Positions 16,448 through 25,922 of a DNA stretch of 25,922 nucleotides are shown in pieces. The DNA lies in the IMG/VR virus record IMGVR_UViG_3300021335_000076, positions 1 to 25,922 of that record, one strand, 5' to 3'. The translations under genes were made by a program, and so were the position numbers. How positions within the stretch are numbered: the stretch's first letter is position 1; each line of letters starts with the position of its first letter. This DNA comes from a virus. The notes beneath the pieces were generated by a model, which saw nothing but the letters and a program-made list of their open reading frames with translations, had not been told where the DNA came from and did no database searches.

Positions 16448-16674
16448 AACCAACACACAAGACACGCCTTCTTCAGTACCTCGAAGACTACGGAAGCATC
16501 ACAAGCCTTCAGGCTATCCAAGACCTTGGAAACACGCGCCTAGCTGCGACCGTTTGCGACCTACGCAAAGAGGGCCACGACATTGTTTCCTCAGACGTCA
16601 AAGTCCCGACACGGTGGGGGACGCAAACCACTGTCGCCAAATACACGTACTCACGATGCCTCGATTTGAAGTAA
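16444..16674 (+). CDS. Winged-helix DNA-binding protein (HTH_39-like)
   Basis: 76 residues. KTRLLQYLEDYGSITSLQAI followed by QDLGNTRLAATVCDLRKEGH is the pattern of a phage helix-turn-helix/winged-helix domain (PF14090-like): helix, GSITSLQA turn, recognition helix, wing. It probably binds DNA as a small early regulator. Starts in an ATGA overlap and overlaps the next gene by 19 bases. Confidence 0.65.
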   Translation: MKPTHKTRLLQYLEDYGSITSLQAIQDLGNTRLAATVCDLRKEGHDIVSSDVKVPTRWGTQTTVAKYTYSRCLDLK

Positions 16675-17228
16675 CCTACTTTCGAGGCTACGACCACGAC
16701 GACTGGGACAAGGCACAGTTCAACGCGGTCGATGCAGACGAAGCAAAACACAAAGCCCTTGACGTTATCCCACCCGGCCACCGGGTGAAAAGAATTAAAC
16801 CAATCCAAAACACAATGGAACAAACAACCAAAATTCAAAACATCACCCCACAGGGGACGTTCGACTACAACGGAAAGACCTTTCACAAATTCGACGTCAT
16901 TCTCGAAAATGGCATGGTCGGAGAGGTCAACGCAATGACCCCAGACAAGTGGAAGGAAGGTGACGAGTGCGTAGTGAAAGAGCAAAACACCACCAAGTGG
17001 GGACCGCGCTTGAAGCTCGACAAACCCGGCTTCAGTGGTGGAGGTAGCCCAAGTCAAAAAGGAGGCAGCAACAACGACGTCAAAGGCATTGTGGCAAGCT
17101 GGGCCGTGGCTTGTGCGATGCAAGCGGCAGGAGACCCCTTCCAGAAGGACTACGACTCAATCGTGTTGCAACTCGCACGGGTGGCCCTGAGTGCTCGCAA
17201 GGTCATCAAAGACGAAGTGGAGGTCTAA
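16656..17228 (+). CDS. OB-fold-like ssDNA-binding candidate with N-terminal extra domain
   Basis: 190 residues from ATG 16656. Residues 1-50 (PRFEVTYFRGYDHDDWDKAQ, DADEAKHKAL, HRVKRIKPI) look like a small stand-alone phage protein. Residues 54-125 (IQNITPQGTFDYNGKTFHKF, VGEVNAMTPDKWKEGDEC) look like an OB-fold-type domain, then a Gly/Ser linker and a C-terminal helix pair. A second in-frame ATG at 16815, after an A-rich leader (AATCCAAAACACA), would give the OB-like protein alone. So the locus may make two products, or be a fusion of two formerly separate genes. ssDNA binding in replication is inferred from fold style and neighbourhood. Confidence 0.6.
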   Translation: MPRFEVTYFRGYDHDDWDKAQFNAVDADEAKHKALDVIPPGHRVKRIKPIQNTMEQTTKIQNITPQGTFDYNGKTFHKFDVILENGMVGEVNAMTPDKWKEGDECVVKEQNTTKWGPRLKLDKPGFSGGGSPSQKGGSNNDVKGIVASWAVACAMQAAGDPFQKDYDSIVLQLARVALSARKVIKDEVEV

Positions 17229-17715: not shown

Positions 17716-17939
17716 AAGACTACATTCGAAAACACTTCGGCTCCCAAAAGCAATGCGCCGAAGAGCTGGGAGTGAGTGAGAAGACCGTGGGCAACTGGAT
17801 GAAGCACAACCCAAGCGGCATCCTAAAGCACGCCCGGCAAATCGTGGAGACCAAGAACACGACCTACCTACAACTTCACGGCGAGGTCGAGTACCGGGAG
17901 CACGAGTTGAAAGAGCTTGAGCCAACACGGGAAACATGA
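17712..17939 (+). CDS. Cro-like HTH regulator
   Basis: 75 residues from the ATG of ATGA; an in-frame ATG at 17685 is less likely. FGSQKQCAEELGVSEKTVGN followed by WMKHNP is a clean helix-turn-helix of the repressor/Cro kind (residues 9-32). The remainder is helical. It could control the early operon. No integrase or second divergent repressor gene is present, so it does not by itself indicate lysogeny. Confidence 0.65.
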   Translation: MKDYIRKHFGSQKQCAEELGVSEKTVGNWMKHNPSGILKHARQIVETKNTTYLQLHGEVEYREHELKELEPTRET

Positions 17940-18721
17940 GGACGGTAACAAGCGTGAGCGGGGGACAGTCCTCCGCTTACATTGCCGCCAACTACCCCAG
18001 CGACTTTCTTGTGTTTGCCTTGGTCTGCATCGAAGACCGACGCTGCACACCCAAAGACGCAAAGTTGGTGCAAATGGTGAGCGACAGAATTGGGCGTGAG
18101 TTCATTGCCACGGCAGAAGACGACACCATCTTGCACACGATTCTCGACTTAGAGCAACATTTGAGCCAAGAAGTGCATTGGGTCGTAGGCAAGCCGTTCG
18201 ACCGCCTAAGAAAAAACAGCCTGCCAAACATTACGTGGAGACACTGCACCGAGCTTATGAAAATTAAGCCGATGTTCAATTGGTGGAAAGCAACCATCGG
18301 AGACCCGGTCAAAATGCAAATCGGGTTTCGAGCTGGCGAAGAGGCACGGGCAAAACGTATGCTTGACAAATGCGACGACAACGGATTGAGGGCATACAAC
18401 AAGAAACCGTGGCAACTGCCGGTTTTCCCCATGATTGACGACAACGTGCGACGCGACGCGGTTGTCAATTACTGGAAAGACAAGCCCGTCCGTTTTGCAA
18501 CTCAGAACAATTGCGTCGGGTGCTTTCACCGCAATCCCTTGACGCTGCGCAAGATGTTTGACTTGCACCCAAACAAGATGCAGTGGTTTATGGACATGGA
18601 AGATATAAAGGGTGCGCAGTGGAAAAGTGAGATGTCGTACAAGGACATCTCCAAACACCGCCCTCAAGTCGAAATCGAATTTGAGGAGTGGGGGTGCGAC
18701 GCTGGATATTGTGGACTATAA
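17936..18721 (+). CDS. PP-loop ATPase of the PAPS-reductase/DndC-like group
   Basis: 261 residues. The N-terminal PP-loop (VSGGQSSA, residues 7-14) marks an enzyme that adenylates its substrate. RHCTELMKIKP (102-112) and MQIGFRAGEEA resemble PAPS-reductase-like phage proteins. Four cysteines form two pairs, C193/C196 (NNCVGCFHRNP) and C254/C259 (CDAGYC), a likely Fe-S or zinc site. Possible jobs are sulfur transfer to a nucleic acid or nucleobase modification; the real substrate is unknown. No partner genes of a phosphorothioate (dnd) or deazaguanine pathway are in the window. Coupled to its neighbour by ATGA. Confidence 0.7.
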   Translation: MRTVTSVSGGQSSAYIAANYPSDFLVFALVCIEDRRCTPKDAKLVQMVSDRIGREFIATAEDDTILHTILDLEQHLSQEVHWVVGKPFDRLRKNSLPNITWRHCTELMKIKPMFNWWKATIGDPVKMQIGFRAGEEARAKRMLDKCDDNGLRAYNKKPWQLPVFPMIDDNVRRDAVVNYWKDKPVRFATQNNCVGCFHRNPLTLRKMFDLHPNKMQWFMDMEDIKGAQWKSEMSYKDISKHRPQVEIEFEEWGCDAGYCGL

Positions 18722-18899: not shown

Positions 18900-19592
18900 A
18901 TGGAAAGAAACTTCAAGGGCGTGTGGATTGCCGCAGAGATATGGTTGGACAAAGACCTGACCTTGGTGGAGAAGGCGTTGCTTGCCGAGATAGATTCATT
19001 CACGGGCAATGGGCGCTCGTTCATGAAGTCCAACGACACCATCCAGTCCGAGTACGGAATTTCCCGGAACACCATCGGACGCAGTTTGCGCAAGCTGGCC
19101 GACCGTGGTTTTGTCGAGGTAACTTTCAATGGACGAGTGCGTTGCGTTACTACCCGTGCAGGCAGCATCCCCAAAATGGGGAGGCAGAGTACCCAAAATG
19201 GGGAGGCAGCATCCCCAAATGATACCTCTACTAATACAAGTAAAAGAACAAAGAACAACACAACTAAAGAGAGGGAGGTGGTCTTGCCTTTCGATTCAAA
19301 GGAATTTGCAGACGCTTGGGACGTATGGATAACGGAGCGCCGCGAACGCGGAACCAAGAAGTACACCCAGCGAGGAGAGCAAGCCGCCCTCCACAAACTC
19401 CAAAACGACTCACAAGGGGACGAGGCCACGGCCATACAAATGATTCACCAAAGCATCGCCAACGGATGGCAAGGTATCTTCCCCCTCAAAAACCAAAAGA
19501 ATGAAACCAAAAGACTTGGCCCTTCGGACGGCTCGCTCATTGCAGAGCATCTCCGACGCCTCGCGAATGAGTCCGGAGAGGGCATGGCGTGA
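18900..19592 (+). CDS. Replication initiator-like HTH protein containing iterons
   Basis: 230 residues. Residues 5-80 are a winged-helix domain (GVWIAAEIWLDKDLTLVEKA, QSEYGISRNTIGRSLRKLAD, RGFVEVTF), as in phage O-type and plasmid-type initiators. Residues 88-107 are encoded by three 22-bp DNA repeats. A polar linker follows, then a C-terminal helical domain (FADAWDVWITERRERGTKKY, ATAIQMIHQSIANGWQGIFP) like those that contact helicase or loader proteins. It should bind the iterons in its own gene and open the origin. No polymerase or helicase gene is present, so it must recruit host enzymes. Confidence 0.7.
   Translation: MERNFKGVWIAAEIWLDKDLTLVEKALLAEIDSFTGNGRSFMKSNDTIQSEYGISRNTIGRSLRKLADRGFVEVTFNGRVRCVTTRAGSIPKMGRQSTQNGEAASPNDTSTNTSKRTKNNTTKEREVVLPFDSKEFADAWDVWITERRERGTKKYTQRGEQAALHKLQNDSQGDEATAIQMIHQSIANGWQGIFPLKNQKNETKRLGPSDGSLIAEHLRRLANESGEGMA
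19161..19220 (+). repeat. Three tandem 22-bp iterons, probable replication origin
   Basis: Units at 19161-19182, 19183-19204 and 19205-19220 (third one partial) begin with GGCAG and share CCCAAAATGGGGA. The first two differ at three bases. Each full unit holds an inverted repeat, CCCCA-AAA-TGGGG (CCCA in the second). The 22-base period is not a multiple of three, so each repeat is read in a different frame; the conservation is therefore at the DNA level. A run of A/T-rich sequence follows (19217-19268). This is the lambda-style layout: iterons and an A/T-rich stretch inside the initiator gene. Confidence 0.75.
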
Positions 19593-20148
19593 AGGCACCA
19601 ATGTACTCGTGGCGTACCGAGAGGCACCCGCAAAGACCGAGGCAACCCTAATCATTTTGTTGAAAGAGACGTTGGGCTACCTCGACTACAACAAAGGCAT
19701 CACCGCCGACCGTGACATCTTGGACGCCGTCCACCATCTCCGCGACACCTTCCCAGCTATGAAGCTCGAAGAATGGGCCATTATCATGCACCGCCTCAAG
19801 ACGGGCGAATACCGCCCCGGATATGAGCGTTTGAAACTTCCCGAATTAGTCGATATATTCAGGCAGTACGAAGGCGAACGAGCCGCCGTCAGGGAGGGCA
19901 ACTGGAACGAGCTGAAGAAGCACGCACCCGACCGCCTGAGCGACGACCAATTGGACGCCCTGTATAAGAACTACAAGAAACGTCGTGAAGCGGAAACCAA
20001 AGAACTCCAAAAGGGGGCAGACATCAAACGAGTCCCGGTCAAGAACGGGCGGTGGGAACACATCCCGTACCCGAACGACAAACCGGAGCGCGATGGTGAA
20101 GAAGGTGGACACGGTGTTCAGCCAGTACGTCCGCCTTCGGGCGAGTGA
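19501..20148 (+). CDS. Replication-associated protein, helicase-loader-like candidate
   Basis: 215 residues from ATG 19501, which has an A-rich leader (CAAAAACCAAAAGA) but overlaps the initiator by 92 bases. ATG 19567 would cut the overlap to 26. Middle part: LGYLDYNKGITADRDILDAV, TFPAMKLEEWAIIMHRLKTG and YERLKLPELVDIFRQYEGER, a pattern I associate with phage proteins placed after initiators (MKxEEWxxxxxRxKxGxY). The end is charged and then Gly/Pro-rich. A helicase-loading role is inferred from order only. Confidence 0.55.
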   Translation: MKPKDLALRTARSLQSISDASRMSPERAWREGTNVLVAYREAPAKTEATLIILLKETLGYLDYNKGITADRDILDAVHHLRDTFPAMKLEEWAIIMHRLKTGEYRPGYERLKLPELVDIFRQYEGERAAVREGNWNELKKHAPDRLSDDQLDALYKNYKKRREAETKELQKGADIKRVPVKNGRWEHIPYPNDKPERDGEEGGHGVQPVRPPSGE

Positions 20149-21291: not shown

Positions 21292-21418
21292 ACAAGACGA
21301 AAAGATGACCGAGTTTCTCAACCGCTGCATGAGCGACGAGACAATGGTGAATGAATACAAGAACGAACGACAAAGAATGGCGATATGCGCGAAAGAGTGG
21401 AGCAAAAAGAAAGCATGA
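21272..21418 (+). CDS. Small protein with RCMSDxxM..E..QR.AIC motif
   Basis: 48 residues from ATG 21272. The sequence PIPSPEQDEKMTEFLNRCMS, then QRMAICAKEWSKK, is a motif I know as a short segment attached to prohead proteases or portal proteins of many phages. Here it stands alone in the early-to-middle region, far from head genes. It overlaps the Cys-rich gene by 20 bases and is linked to the next gene by ATGA. Confidence 0.6.
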   Translation: MPIPSPEQDEKMTEFLNRCMSDETMVNEYKNERQRMAICAKEWSKKKA

Positions 21419-21747
21419 ATCCGTGGCTCGTTGTAGGCTACCTGCAAGACGCACCGCGTGGACTATCTGACAGGAACACAGACGTGCAAAAAGTCATCCG
21501 TTTTTGCAAGGTGGTAAGAGTGCCTTGGAAAAAAGTAGTTGGGCCTGTCAGACGTCGTGACTACGTCGAGGCCCGCCAATTAATAAGCAAGTACCTCAAG
21601 GACCAAGGATGGACGTACCGAGAAATTGGACAACTCTTGGGCAAGCGCGACCACTCGACAAGCGTGTACGCAGTCAAGGCCGCAACAAACCTCCTGGACG
21701 TTGACGCACAAATTCGCCTGAAATGGCTCAAACTTTTGCAAGCATGA
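21415..21747 (+). CDS. DnaA domain IV-like DNA-binding protein
   Basis: 110 residues from the ATG of ATGA. Residues 48-95 (RDYVEARQLISKYLKDQGWT, YREIGQLLGKRDHSTSVYAV) match the C-terminal, DnaA-box-binding domain of DnaA: aR-x-i-x-x-y-L, then EIG..lGkRDHST. The AAA+ part of DnaA is absent, so it cannot unwind DNA itself. It may compete with or recruit host DnaA, or bind a phage site. The N-terminal 45 residues have no recognised fold. Confidence 0.7.
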   Translation: MNPWLVVGYLQDAPRGLSDRNTDVQKVIRFCKVVRVPWKKVVGPVRRRDYVEARQLISKYLKDQGWTYREIGQLLGKRDHSTSVYAVKAATNLLDVDAQIRLKWLKLLQA

Positions 21748-24559: not shown

Positions 24560-25263
24560 ATGAAGCTGCGCCTCCCCGCCACTTTCCAAGACCTCACCTT
24601 GCGTGACCTTATGACGCTCGAAACGGAAACCGACCCCGTTAAGCGCGTCCATGCCGTCACGGGCCACTCCTTCGCAGAGCTTCGCAAGATGCCCCACAAA
24701 CTCATCGTGGAGGCCAACGCACACCTTGACAACTTGCAAGCCAACGAGGTCGCCCAGCACAAAGAAATCATTGAACTCGGAGGAGTTGAGTACGGCTTTG
24801 TCCCGGACTGGGACGAGTTCAGCGCGGGAGAGTGGATTGATATGGAGACGTATACGGCGGACTTTTGGAAGACGCCGCACAAGGCCATGAGCATCTTGTA
24901 CCGACCACTTGAGAGGAAGTGGGGGGACCGCTACTCCATCAAACCGTACACGGCCAAAGAGGACGCCGACGTGTTCCTCGATATGCCAGCTCCCCTTGTC
25001 GCAGGTGCGTTGCTTTTTTTTTGGAGTACCGAAAAGAAACTACTCAACGCTTTGCAGTCCTCTTTAATTCAGAAGACTCAGGAGGTGACGAGTTTGCTGC
25101 AAAGTGGGGATGGTATCCTGTCCTCTACACCTTGGCCGGTGAGGACATTCTTAAAATGGATGCGGTCACGAAGCTACCCGTTGGCCACGCCTTCACCCAC
25201 CTCGCCTACCTCAAGGACTTGAACTTCAAAAGAGAGCAAGCCAGTAAGAACCGCATCGCATGA
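24560..25263 (+). CDS. Tail-assembly-chaperone-like protein, -1 frameshifted
   Basis: From ATG 24560 the 0 frame runs 220 codons to 25222. Residues 1-154 match a Bacteroidota phage tail-chaperone-like pattern (ATFQDLTLRDLMTLETETDP, HKAMSILYRPLERKWGDRYS, MPAPLVAGALLFF). After T9 (25014-25022) the 0-frame tail becomes Ser/Pro/Thr/Arg-rich and looks unnatural. A -1 shift gives a 234-residue product with a natural end (KWGWYPVLYTLAGEDILKMD, then KLPVGHAFTHLAYLKDLNFK). That frame's TGA overlaps the next ATG, and its last 90 bases also appear at 1-90. Either programmed frameshifting, as in lambda G/GT, or one missing T in this sequence. Confidence 0.65.
25015..25021 (+). promoter_or_regulatory. T TTT TTT slippery heptamer
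   Basis: The 0-frame codons are CTT TTT TTT TGG, so a canonical X XXY YYZ heptamer lies in phase within a 9-T run. Slipping back one base gives TTT TTT TTG GAG. A weak stem, GAGTA (25024-25028) with TACTC (25041-25045), begins three bases downstream; it is too short to be convincing as a stimulator alone. Confidence 0.6.
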
Positions 25264-25922
25264 TTACATTCAACAACATCGTCTCCAAGTTTCAGGAGTT
25301 CTGCGACGACCACTTCTTCATCAAGACGTTCTCGTATGGCTCGCCCTCGGACGTGGACTTGGAGAAGTTCGAGCAGTACCCGCTCCTTCACTTGGTGTAC
25401 ACCGGTGGGGACTACAACTCACCCAAAGCCAAGACCTACAACCTCGAAGTCTACATCTTGTCCTTGCCTCCCTCGAAGGCGGACAAGGTAGAATATCAAA
25501 AGGAGAACATCTCGAACGCCGAGCAGGTGGCCGAGGACATCTTGGCCGACATCCAGAACGGAGGAAACATCTTCCAGTTCGGGTTCCACTACGACCTCGT
25601 CAACGCCTCGGTGACACCCTTGGAGGAGTCACAGAGCAACGCCCTTGCTGGGTGCTTGCTTGACATCGCTATCTCGGTCCCCTACACCTACGACTCGTGC
25701 AACGCGCCCTTGACAGGCGTTGAACCCGAAGGCAGCGATACGCCATCGTTCAAGGCTCGGGGCCTTCTCCGGGTGCGTGAACTGGACGGCTCGCCCGACG
25801 TGTTGAGCGTGGCCACCATCAACGTGCCCAACGGCAGTTTGACCGACGACGGCGACGGGGAAATCACCTTGACCTTTGGAGGTGGAGGTGACGCAGACAC
25901 CGCCGAGAAAGTACACTTCCCA
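25174..25922. repeat. Diverged terminal direct repeat, right copy
   Basis: Same region as 1-749, offset 25173. Identical for about the first 127 bases, then about thirty mostly synonymous changes and a 6-base insertion that lengthens a Gly run. A few amino-acid changes fall in the fiber part (for example Thr to Asp in the residues just before TPSFKARG). The window ends inside it. Confidence 0.9.
25260..25922 (+). CDS. Second copy of the tail-completion/fiber gene, cut by window end
   Basis: 221 codons from the ATG in ATGA at 25260-25263. The tail-completion domain (residues 1-150) is the same protein as at 87, with only synonymous changes seen in that part. The start of the fiber part has a few replacements and two extra Gly residues before the DADTAEKVHFP stretch. 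The truncation is the window edge, not a mutation. It shows the gene continues after the chaperone in the circular map. Confidence 0.75.
   Translation, partial: MITFNNIVSKFQEFCDDHFFIKTFSYGSPSDVDLEKFEQYPLLHLVYTGGDYNSPKAKTYNLEVYILSLPPSKADKVEYQKENISNAEQVAEDILADIQNGGNIFQFGFHYDLVNASVTPLEESQSNALAGCLLDIAISVPYTYDSCNAPLTGVEPEGSDTPSFKARGLLRVRELDGSPDVLSVATINVPNGSLTDDGDGEITLTFGGGGDADTAEKVHFP

Follow-up and report, generated by a model that had tools for sequence, protein, structure and literature searches.

Genomic context of the initiator gene

The DNA analyzed (here termed the window) is an entire 25.9-kb virus record of 25,922 nucleotides, with terminase, portal, tape-measure, and endolysin genes among its ORFs. 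The two ends of the record (1-742 and 25174-25921) were found to overlap by approximately 749 bp at 94.7% identity (32 mismatches and 5 gaps); because of this overlap, the genome is probably a circle or a terminally redundant molecule of about 25.2 kb, with an assembly that merged two slightly different variants. Sequence comparison placed the nearest large terminases in Bacteroides/Phocaeicola phages (about 40%), such that a Bacteroidota host is plausible; genome comparison for the host returned distant relatives only. In agreement with the original prediction that this phage has no replication enzymes of its own, no polymerase, helicase, or primase was detected among the ORFs scanned. Immediately upstream of the replication genes was a PAPS-reductase-like gene (17936-18721; phrog_424, 1.6e-23). 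A 191-aa protein (16653-17228) had no family match and is putatively SSB-like by eye (NITPQGTFDYNGKTFHKFDVILENGMVGEV...). A 120-aa protein (21385-21747) was found to correspond to DnaA DNA-binding domain IV alone (Bac_DnaA_C, 2.2e-9; TIGR00362, 4.2e-9); despite the presence of this gene, the window had no exact DnaA box (TTWTNCACA).

The replication initiator gene and its parts are listed in Table 1. The encoded protein was matched over residues 15-207 by phrog_678, 'replication initiation O-like' (1.8e-17), and 20 relatives were found in IMG/VR. The AlphaFold2 model, which was of moderate confidence (mean pLDDT 65, pTM 0.35), placed helices at residues 12-15, 22-35, 46-52, and 56-68 and the strands of a wing at 72-76 and 81-85 in the first domain; Foldseek searches with this domain returned MarR-type winged helices as weak matches (best E-value 0.015). 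Residues 94-125, whose codons fall in the repeats and in the A/T-rich part described below, were of very low confidence in the model, and the repeat-encoded linker between the winged helix and the helical domain is predicted to be disordered. The ORF that overlaps the 3′ end of the initiator gene occupies, by positional comparison, the slot of the helicase loader or helicase genes in related phages. This 215-aa ORF had no match in Pfam, NCBIfam, the phage collection (tblastn), or PDB folds, including no match to P, DnaC, or a helicase, and its sole PHROG match was weak and to a family of unknown function (phrog_35728). A helicase-loader identity was considered for this ORF, and no family, phage-collection, or fold match was found to back it.

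A tandem repeat array within the coding sequence

The original prediction had placed three tandem 22-bp repeats in the initiator coding sequence, and this array was recovered by TRF and by a repeat search at 19160-19219/19225, spanning codons 88-109. The further claim that each unit carries a CCCCA-AAA-TGGGG inverted repeat was too strong, since the full form is restricted to unit 1, with unit 2 mismatched in its left arm and unit 3 reduced to a half-site, a form that is conserved among the class I relatives (see below). The units were found to start in codon phases 2, 0, and 1, and therefore encode unrelated residues (GSIPKMG, QSTQNGE, and AASPND), as had been proposed. When the codons were shuffled synonymously with the protein kept, none of 300 shuffles reached the tandem score of 7.8 (highest 6.1), while the bare 13-mer with up to three mismatches was not enriched in the window (12 sites vs 8.7 expected). 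What exceeds chance is the tandem array, not the bare 13-mer.

The A/T-rich stretch said to follow the repeats was likewise found, with 67% A+T compared with a window-wide 46%; among all 25,871 segments of this length, just 78 (0.3%) were as A+T-rich. The anticipated GC-skew peak near 19.2 kb did not appear, the skew over the window having no diagnostic peak at this position.

Table 1. Features of the initiator locus, in window coordinates
Feature	Position	Strand	Description
Replication initiator gene	18900..19592	+	230 aa; HTH_36 1.3e-7; phrog_678
N-terminal winged-helix domain	18930..19154	+	residues ~11-85; Pfam HTH_36 at 19-72
Recognition helix	19065..19103	+	residues 56-68 in the model; Asn57 at 19068-19070
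Iteron 1 (putative)	19160..19181	+	AGGCAGCATCCCCAAAATGGGG; full inverted repeat CCCCA-AAA-TGGGG at 19169-19181
Iteron 2 (putative)	19182..19203	+	AGGCAGAGTACCCAAAATGGGG; ACCCA-AAA-TGGGG, one arm mismatch
Iteron 3 (putative)	19204..19225	+	AGGCAGCATCCCCAAATGATAC; left half-site only (CCCCAAATGATAC)
A/T-rich stretch	19214..19265	+	candidate DNA unwinding element; 52 bp, 67% A+T
AATACAA element	19233..19239	+	just downstream of the last iteron; found in many related and distant initiators
C-terminal helical domain	19299..19463	+	residues 134-188 (model); swapped in some relatives
Overlapping downstream ORF	19501..20148	+	215 aa; kept behind the initiator in relatives

Relatives of the initiator and selection on the DNA

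The IMG/VR relatives, about 40 of them distinct, were sorted into three classes by recognition helix and repeat. These included: (i) class I, to which the window belongs, with the helix SRNTIxR and the repeat CCCCAAAATGGGG; (ii) class II, with the helix SRPTVSK and palindromes of the GGAAAGATTCTTTC or CGTAAAATATTTACG type, present as four units (seven in L075), where residue 57 is Pro and several palindrome positions differ at once; and (iii) class III, with the helix APRTVQR and the palindrome TCGCCAAAATGRCGA. Common to all three were the 22-bp period, mostly a GGCAG spacer, and an A/T-rich segment of the TACTAATACA type after the last unit, while the repeat-encoded residues were unrelated between classes (GSIPKMGRQSTQNGEAASPND vs DRKIFTGRGKDSFGQQEKNFPAEGKN). 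The test proposed with the original prediction, that the DNA units persist while the encoded residues drift, was borne out by these sister groups, in which the palindromes differ but the 22-bp framework is retained, and by the near absence of synonymous change in the repeats. Synonymous divergence in the repeat codons was 1.8% (0.018) of expectation in class I (22 sequences), 24.5% (0.245) in class II (11 sequences), and 0.9% (0.009) in class III (7 sequences), with a permutation P-value of 5e-5 in each class, which is the floor of the test. This constraint was found to run on through the A/T-rich part and to reach background only after approximately codon 120-126, among relatives that differ by up to ~40% in protein sequence. 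The opposite case, in which the amino acids are kept and the DNA repeats lost, was not encountered among the ~40 distinct relatives.

The number of units was also variable. The three extra units of L075 (66 bp) leave the reading frame intact, and unit number appears, from these sequences, to change by three where the frame is kept. At L017:920-1565, 44 bp (two iteron units) are missing, with a resulting frameshift and truncated initiator; this loss is either real or an artefact of assembly or amplification. In L018-L020 and others, a different C-terminal domain was found behind the same iterons. Neither C-terminal type is confined to a single iteron class, and helix type and repeat type stay coupled. 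By these computations, the array is selected as DNA and co-segregates with the DNA-binding domain.

Distribution of in-gene repeats in other phages

The collection was scanned for pairs of CCCAAAATGGG with free spacing (12-41 bp between starts). The spacing was found to peak at 22 bp, with 28 distinct ORFs compared with 11 at 21 bp and 10 at 23 bp, a peak that is inflated by those loci of the scan that had originally been fetched by a 22-bp pattern or by protein similarity. The matches included initiators unrelated outside the winged helix. Among cultured phages, Skulduggery, LspM-01, HU1, Cruim01, and GJ44 were found to have in-gene repeats of 22-23 bp at codons 93-118, behind the same domain, and in three of these five a DnaC-like, helicase, or ATPase gene is directly downstream. 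In 12 of 21 tails, an AATAC[AC] element was found behind the final repeat, compared with 2.0 expected from composition shuffles and a maximum of 7 in 2000 shuffles, although the count overstates the significance because the motif had been noticed before it was counted. This element is read in two different frames (L044/L027 vs L023/L108), which again points to a role at the DNA level.

Pairs of GCCAAAATGGC at a start-to-start spacing of 29 bp were observed on large phage contigs (L205, L206, L213, L216, L231, L250, and others), dispersed and at up to seven per 10-kb locus. These pairs seem to represent another kind of repeated element, which may be regulatory.

Correspondence between recognition-helix residue 57 and the iteron

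The winged helices were aligned by profile, and the residue that precedes the conserved recognition-helix Thr (the Asn57 column) was compared with the outer base of the repeat. Among initiators with in-gene CCCAAAATGGG pairs, 28 of 30 have Asn at this position, and among those with in-gene GCCAAAATGGC pairs, 15 of 17 have Arg; the exceptions were L142 (Gly) and L030 (Ser) in the former and L259 (His) and L270 (Lys) in the latter. L155, which has CCCAAAATGGG repeats, was not aligned by the profile. Mutual information between column and iteron base, calculated on 20 representatives clustered at 60% identity, gave a z-score of 11.9 for column 57 and of 2.1 for the next column of the domain. Two families were found to hold both forms, each with the matching residue, and L110 (FPFWSINTIRR, C) and L203 (FPFWSIRTIRR, G) form a near-minimal pair. 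When each combination of 50%-identity cluster and base was counted once, the Asn:Arg counts were 3:0 vs 0:9 (Fisher P = 0.0045), where such clusters are not a full phylogenetic correction. As this correction is incomplete and the repeat core of the set was fixed in advance by the search patterns, the correspondence is a strong lead rather than proof.

The correspondence was also followed outside the discovery set. The 398 genomes of G001's phylum yielded a single CCCAAAATGGG pair (L345, with the fitting Asn) and no GCCAAAATGGC pair. Asn accompanied CCC-type repeats in L345, L351, and L354, L348 (Arg) was found to fit in its right half-sites only, and Lys, Ser, Met, and Asp accompanied other palindromes. 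A code for outer A or T bases was dropped, with too few families available (4 sequences each). Overall, residue 57 matches the outer base of the iteron by computation, and this match is not universal. We consider it reasonably likely that winged-helix initiators follow a readable code, in which the outer base of xCCAAAATGGy is set by the residue in front of the conserved Thr (Asn for C, Arg for G, and perhaps Thr/Ser for A), such that origin specificity would be switchable by one residue and the matching base pair and, since the binding sites are contained in the gene itself, predictable from sequence alone. No description of this helix-iteron correspondence was found in the literature searched, a search that did not reach most subscription journals. 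The kind of origin itself is already known; of interest for testing by a specialist are the pairing of helix classes with iteron classes and the one-residue correspondence.

A proposed replication origin

Comparative sequence analysis thus strongly supports an iteron origin. The repeats are very likely iterons bound by the initiator of their own gene, which together with the A/T-rich stretch would form a lambda O/ori-like origin of replication. We infer that initiator binding, unwinding, helicase loading, and the start of replication would take place at the array. The winged-helix domain would bind the palindromic iterons, which may lie on one face of the DNA, being phased at 22 bp or about two helical turns, and the match of residue 57 with the iteron base supports such binding indirectly; the resulting complex would strain the A/T-rich stretch until it opens; and the C-terminal domain may recruit the host replicative helicase, directly or via the overlapping 215-aa protein.

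Binding sites within the gene could by themselves serve autoregulation, and the repeats might instead be an in-gene operator through which the initiator, or another winged-helix protein, represses its own transcription, with the origin located elsewhere. A MarR/GntR-like winged helix and palindromic sites would suit such an operator; however, in every relative the sites are located at the interdomain linker, ~260 bp from the start of the coding sequence, and are always followed by an A/T-rich stretch with a synonymous constraint of its own. Replication-initiator profiles, moreover, cover most of the protein, and phages of the same layout have helicase or loader genes directly downstream. We regard an operator as improbable.

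Less probable still is that the repeats act as RNA, with tandem mRNA hairpins (CCCCA-AAA-UGGGG) that control translation of the initiator. The constraint on synonymous sites and the capacity of each full unit to form a 5-bp hairpin are consistent with this possibility, yet the AAA between the arms is constrained as much as the arms, and unit 3 is kept as a half-site although unable to form a hairpin. Further, an exact 22-bp period would be purposeless in RNA, and a residue in the DNA recognition helix covaries with the outer base. Least likely is a functionless by-product of short duplication, which a linker predicted to be disordered might tolerate as an insertion: the near absence of synonymous change despite the protein divergence among relatives already refutes it, unless the conservation reflects a recent transfer of this segment alone, and the recurrence of the 22-bp period with other sequences in sister groups and distant phages also speaks against it.

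With replication origin as the preferred reading, the lambda O/ori plan is extended to one group of small phages, probably of Bacteroidota, in which the selection on DNA is shown by comparison. Initiator and binding site travel in one gene, and the specificity of protein for DNA can therefore be followed in thousands of phage genomes as so many natural experiments. The correspondence of residue 57 with the iteron provides a simple rule, open to testing, by which initiators with a common origin can be told; such a rule would indicate between which phages competition for an origin, or mutual exclusion from it, could occur.

Comparison with known systems

Iteron plasmid origins of the RepA/RepE type have initiator-bound direct repeats that adjoin an A/T-rich stretch, as in the layout of the window. 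Plasmid iterons are usually outside the rep coding region, unlike those of the window, and no plasmid Rep family (Rep_3/RepE type) was among the Pfam and NCBIfam matches listed for the window initiator. The winged-helix/DnaD-like initiators of Bacillota phages (e.g., L023, L044, L108, and L110; Bacillus phage vB_BhaS-171 and Staphylococcus phage phiIPLA88) have in-gene repeats of 22-24 bp behind the winged helix and a downstream AATACCA element, several of them sharing the CCCAAAATGGG core and the recognition-helix Asn. Beyond the domain these initiators have little sequence identity to that of the window; their C-terminal domains and hosts are different, and helicase or loader genes are recognisable downstream of them.

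In lambda, the iterons lie in the middle of gene O and are followed by an AT-rich tract; the minimal site is a 19-bp imperfect inverted repeat, and two iterons with the AT tract are the minimal unit for unwinding (PMC7466680). In Stx phages, two extra iterons add 13 residues to O (PMC7466680). The lambda O protein binds DNA through its N-terminus and P through its C-terminus, and has a flexible linker (PMC6022878). The lambda record has four annotated 18-bp iterons in gene O (39034-39118), with starts 20, 24, and 23 bp apart, followed by ACACTATTACAAAAGAAAAAAG. The window resembles this system in the position of the iterons mid-gene, in inverted repeats with an A-tract center (lambda ATCCCTCAAAACGAGGGA, window ATCCCCAAAATGGGGA), in the A/T-rich tract directly after the last iteron, and in the domain order, with the iteron-encoded linker placed behind a DNA-binding domain and ahead of an interaction domain. 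It differs in having a constant 22-bp period, two full iterons and a half-site rather than four iterons, and no recognisable P gene downstream. The likeness to lambda O/ori in the original prediction held for the layout and at the profile level, phrog_678 matching both lambda O (1.7e-35) and the window initiator, and did not extend to the Pfam lambda O family: Phage_rep_O (PF04492) matches lambda O (5.7e-36) and was not among the matches of the window initiator at E-values up to 0.1, HTH_36 being matched instead. We infer that the window initiator works like lambda O at ori and is related to it at the profile level, and do not assign it to the O family of Pfam; the proposed window origin is a further case of a known origin type.
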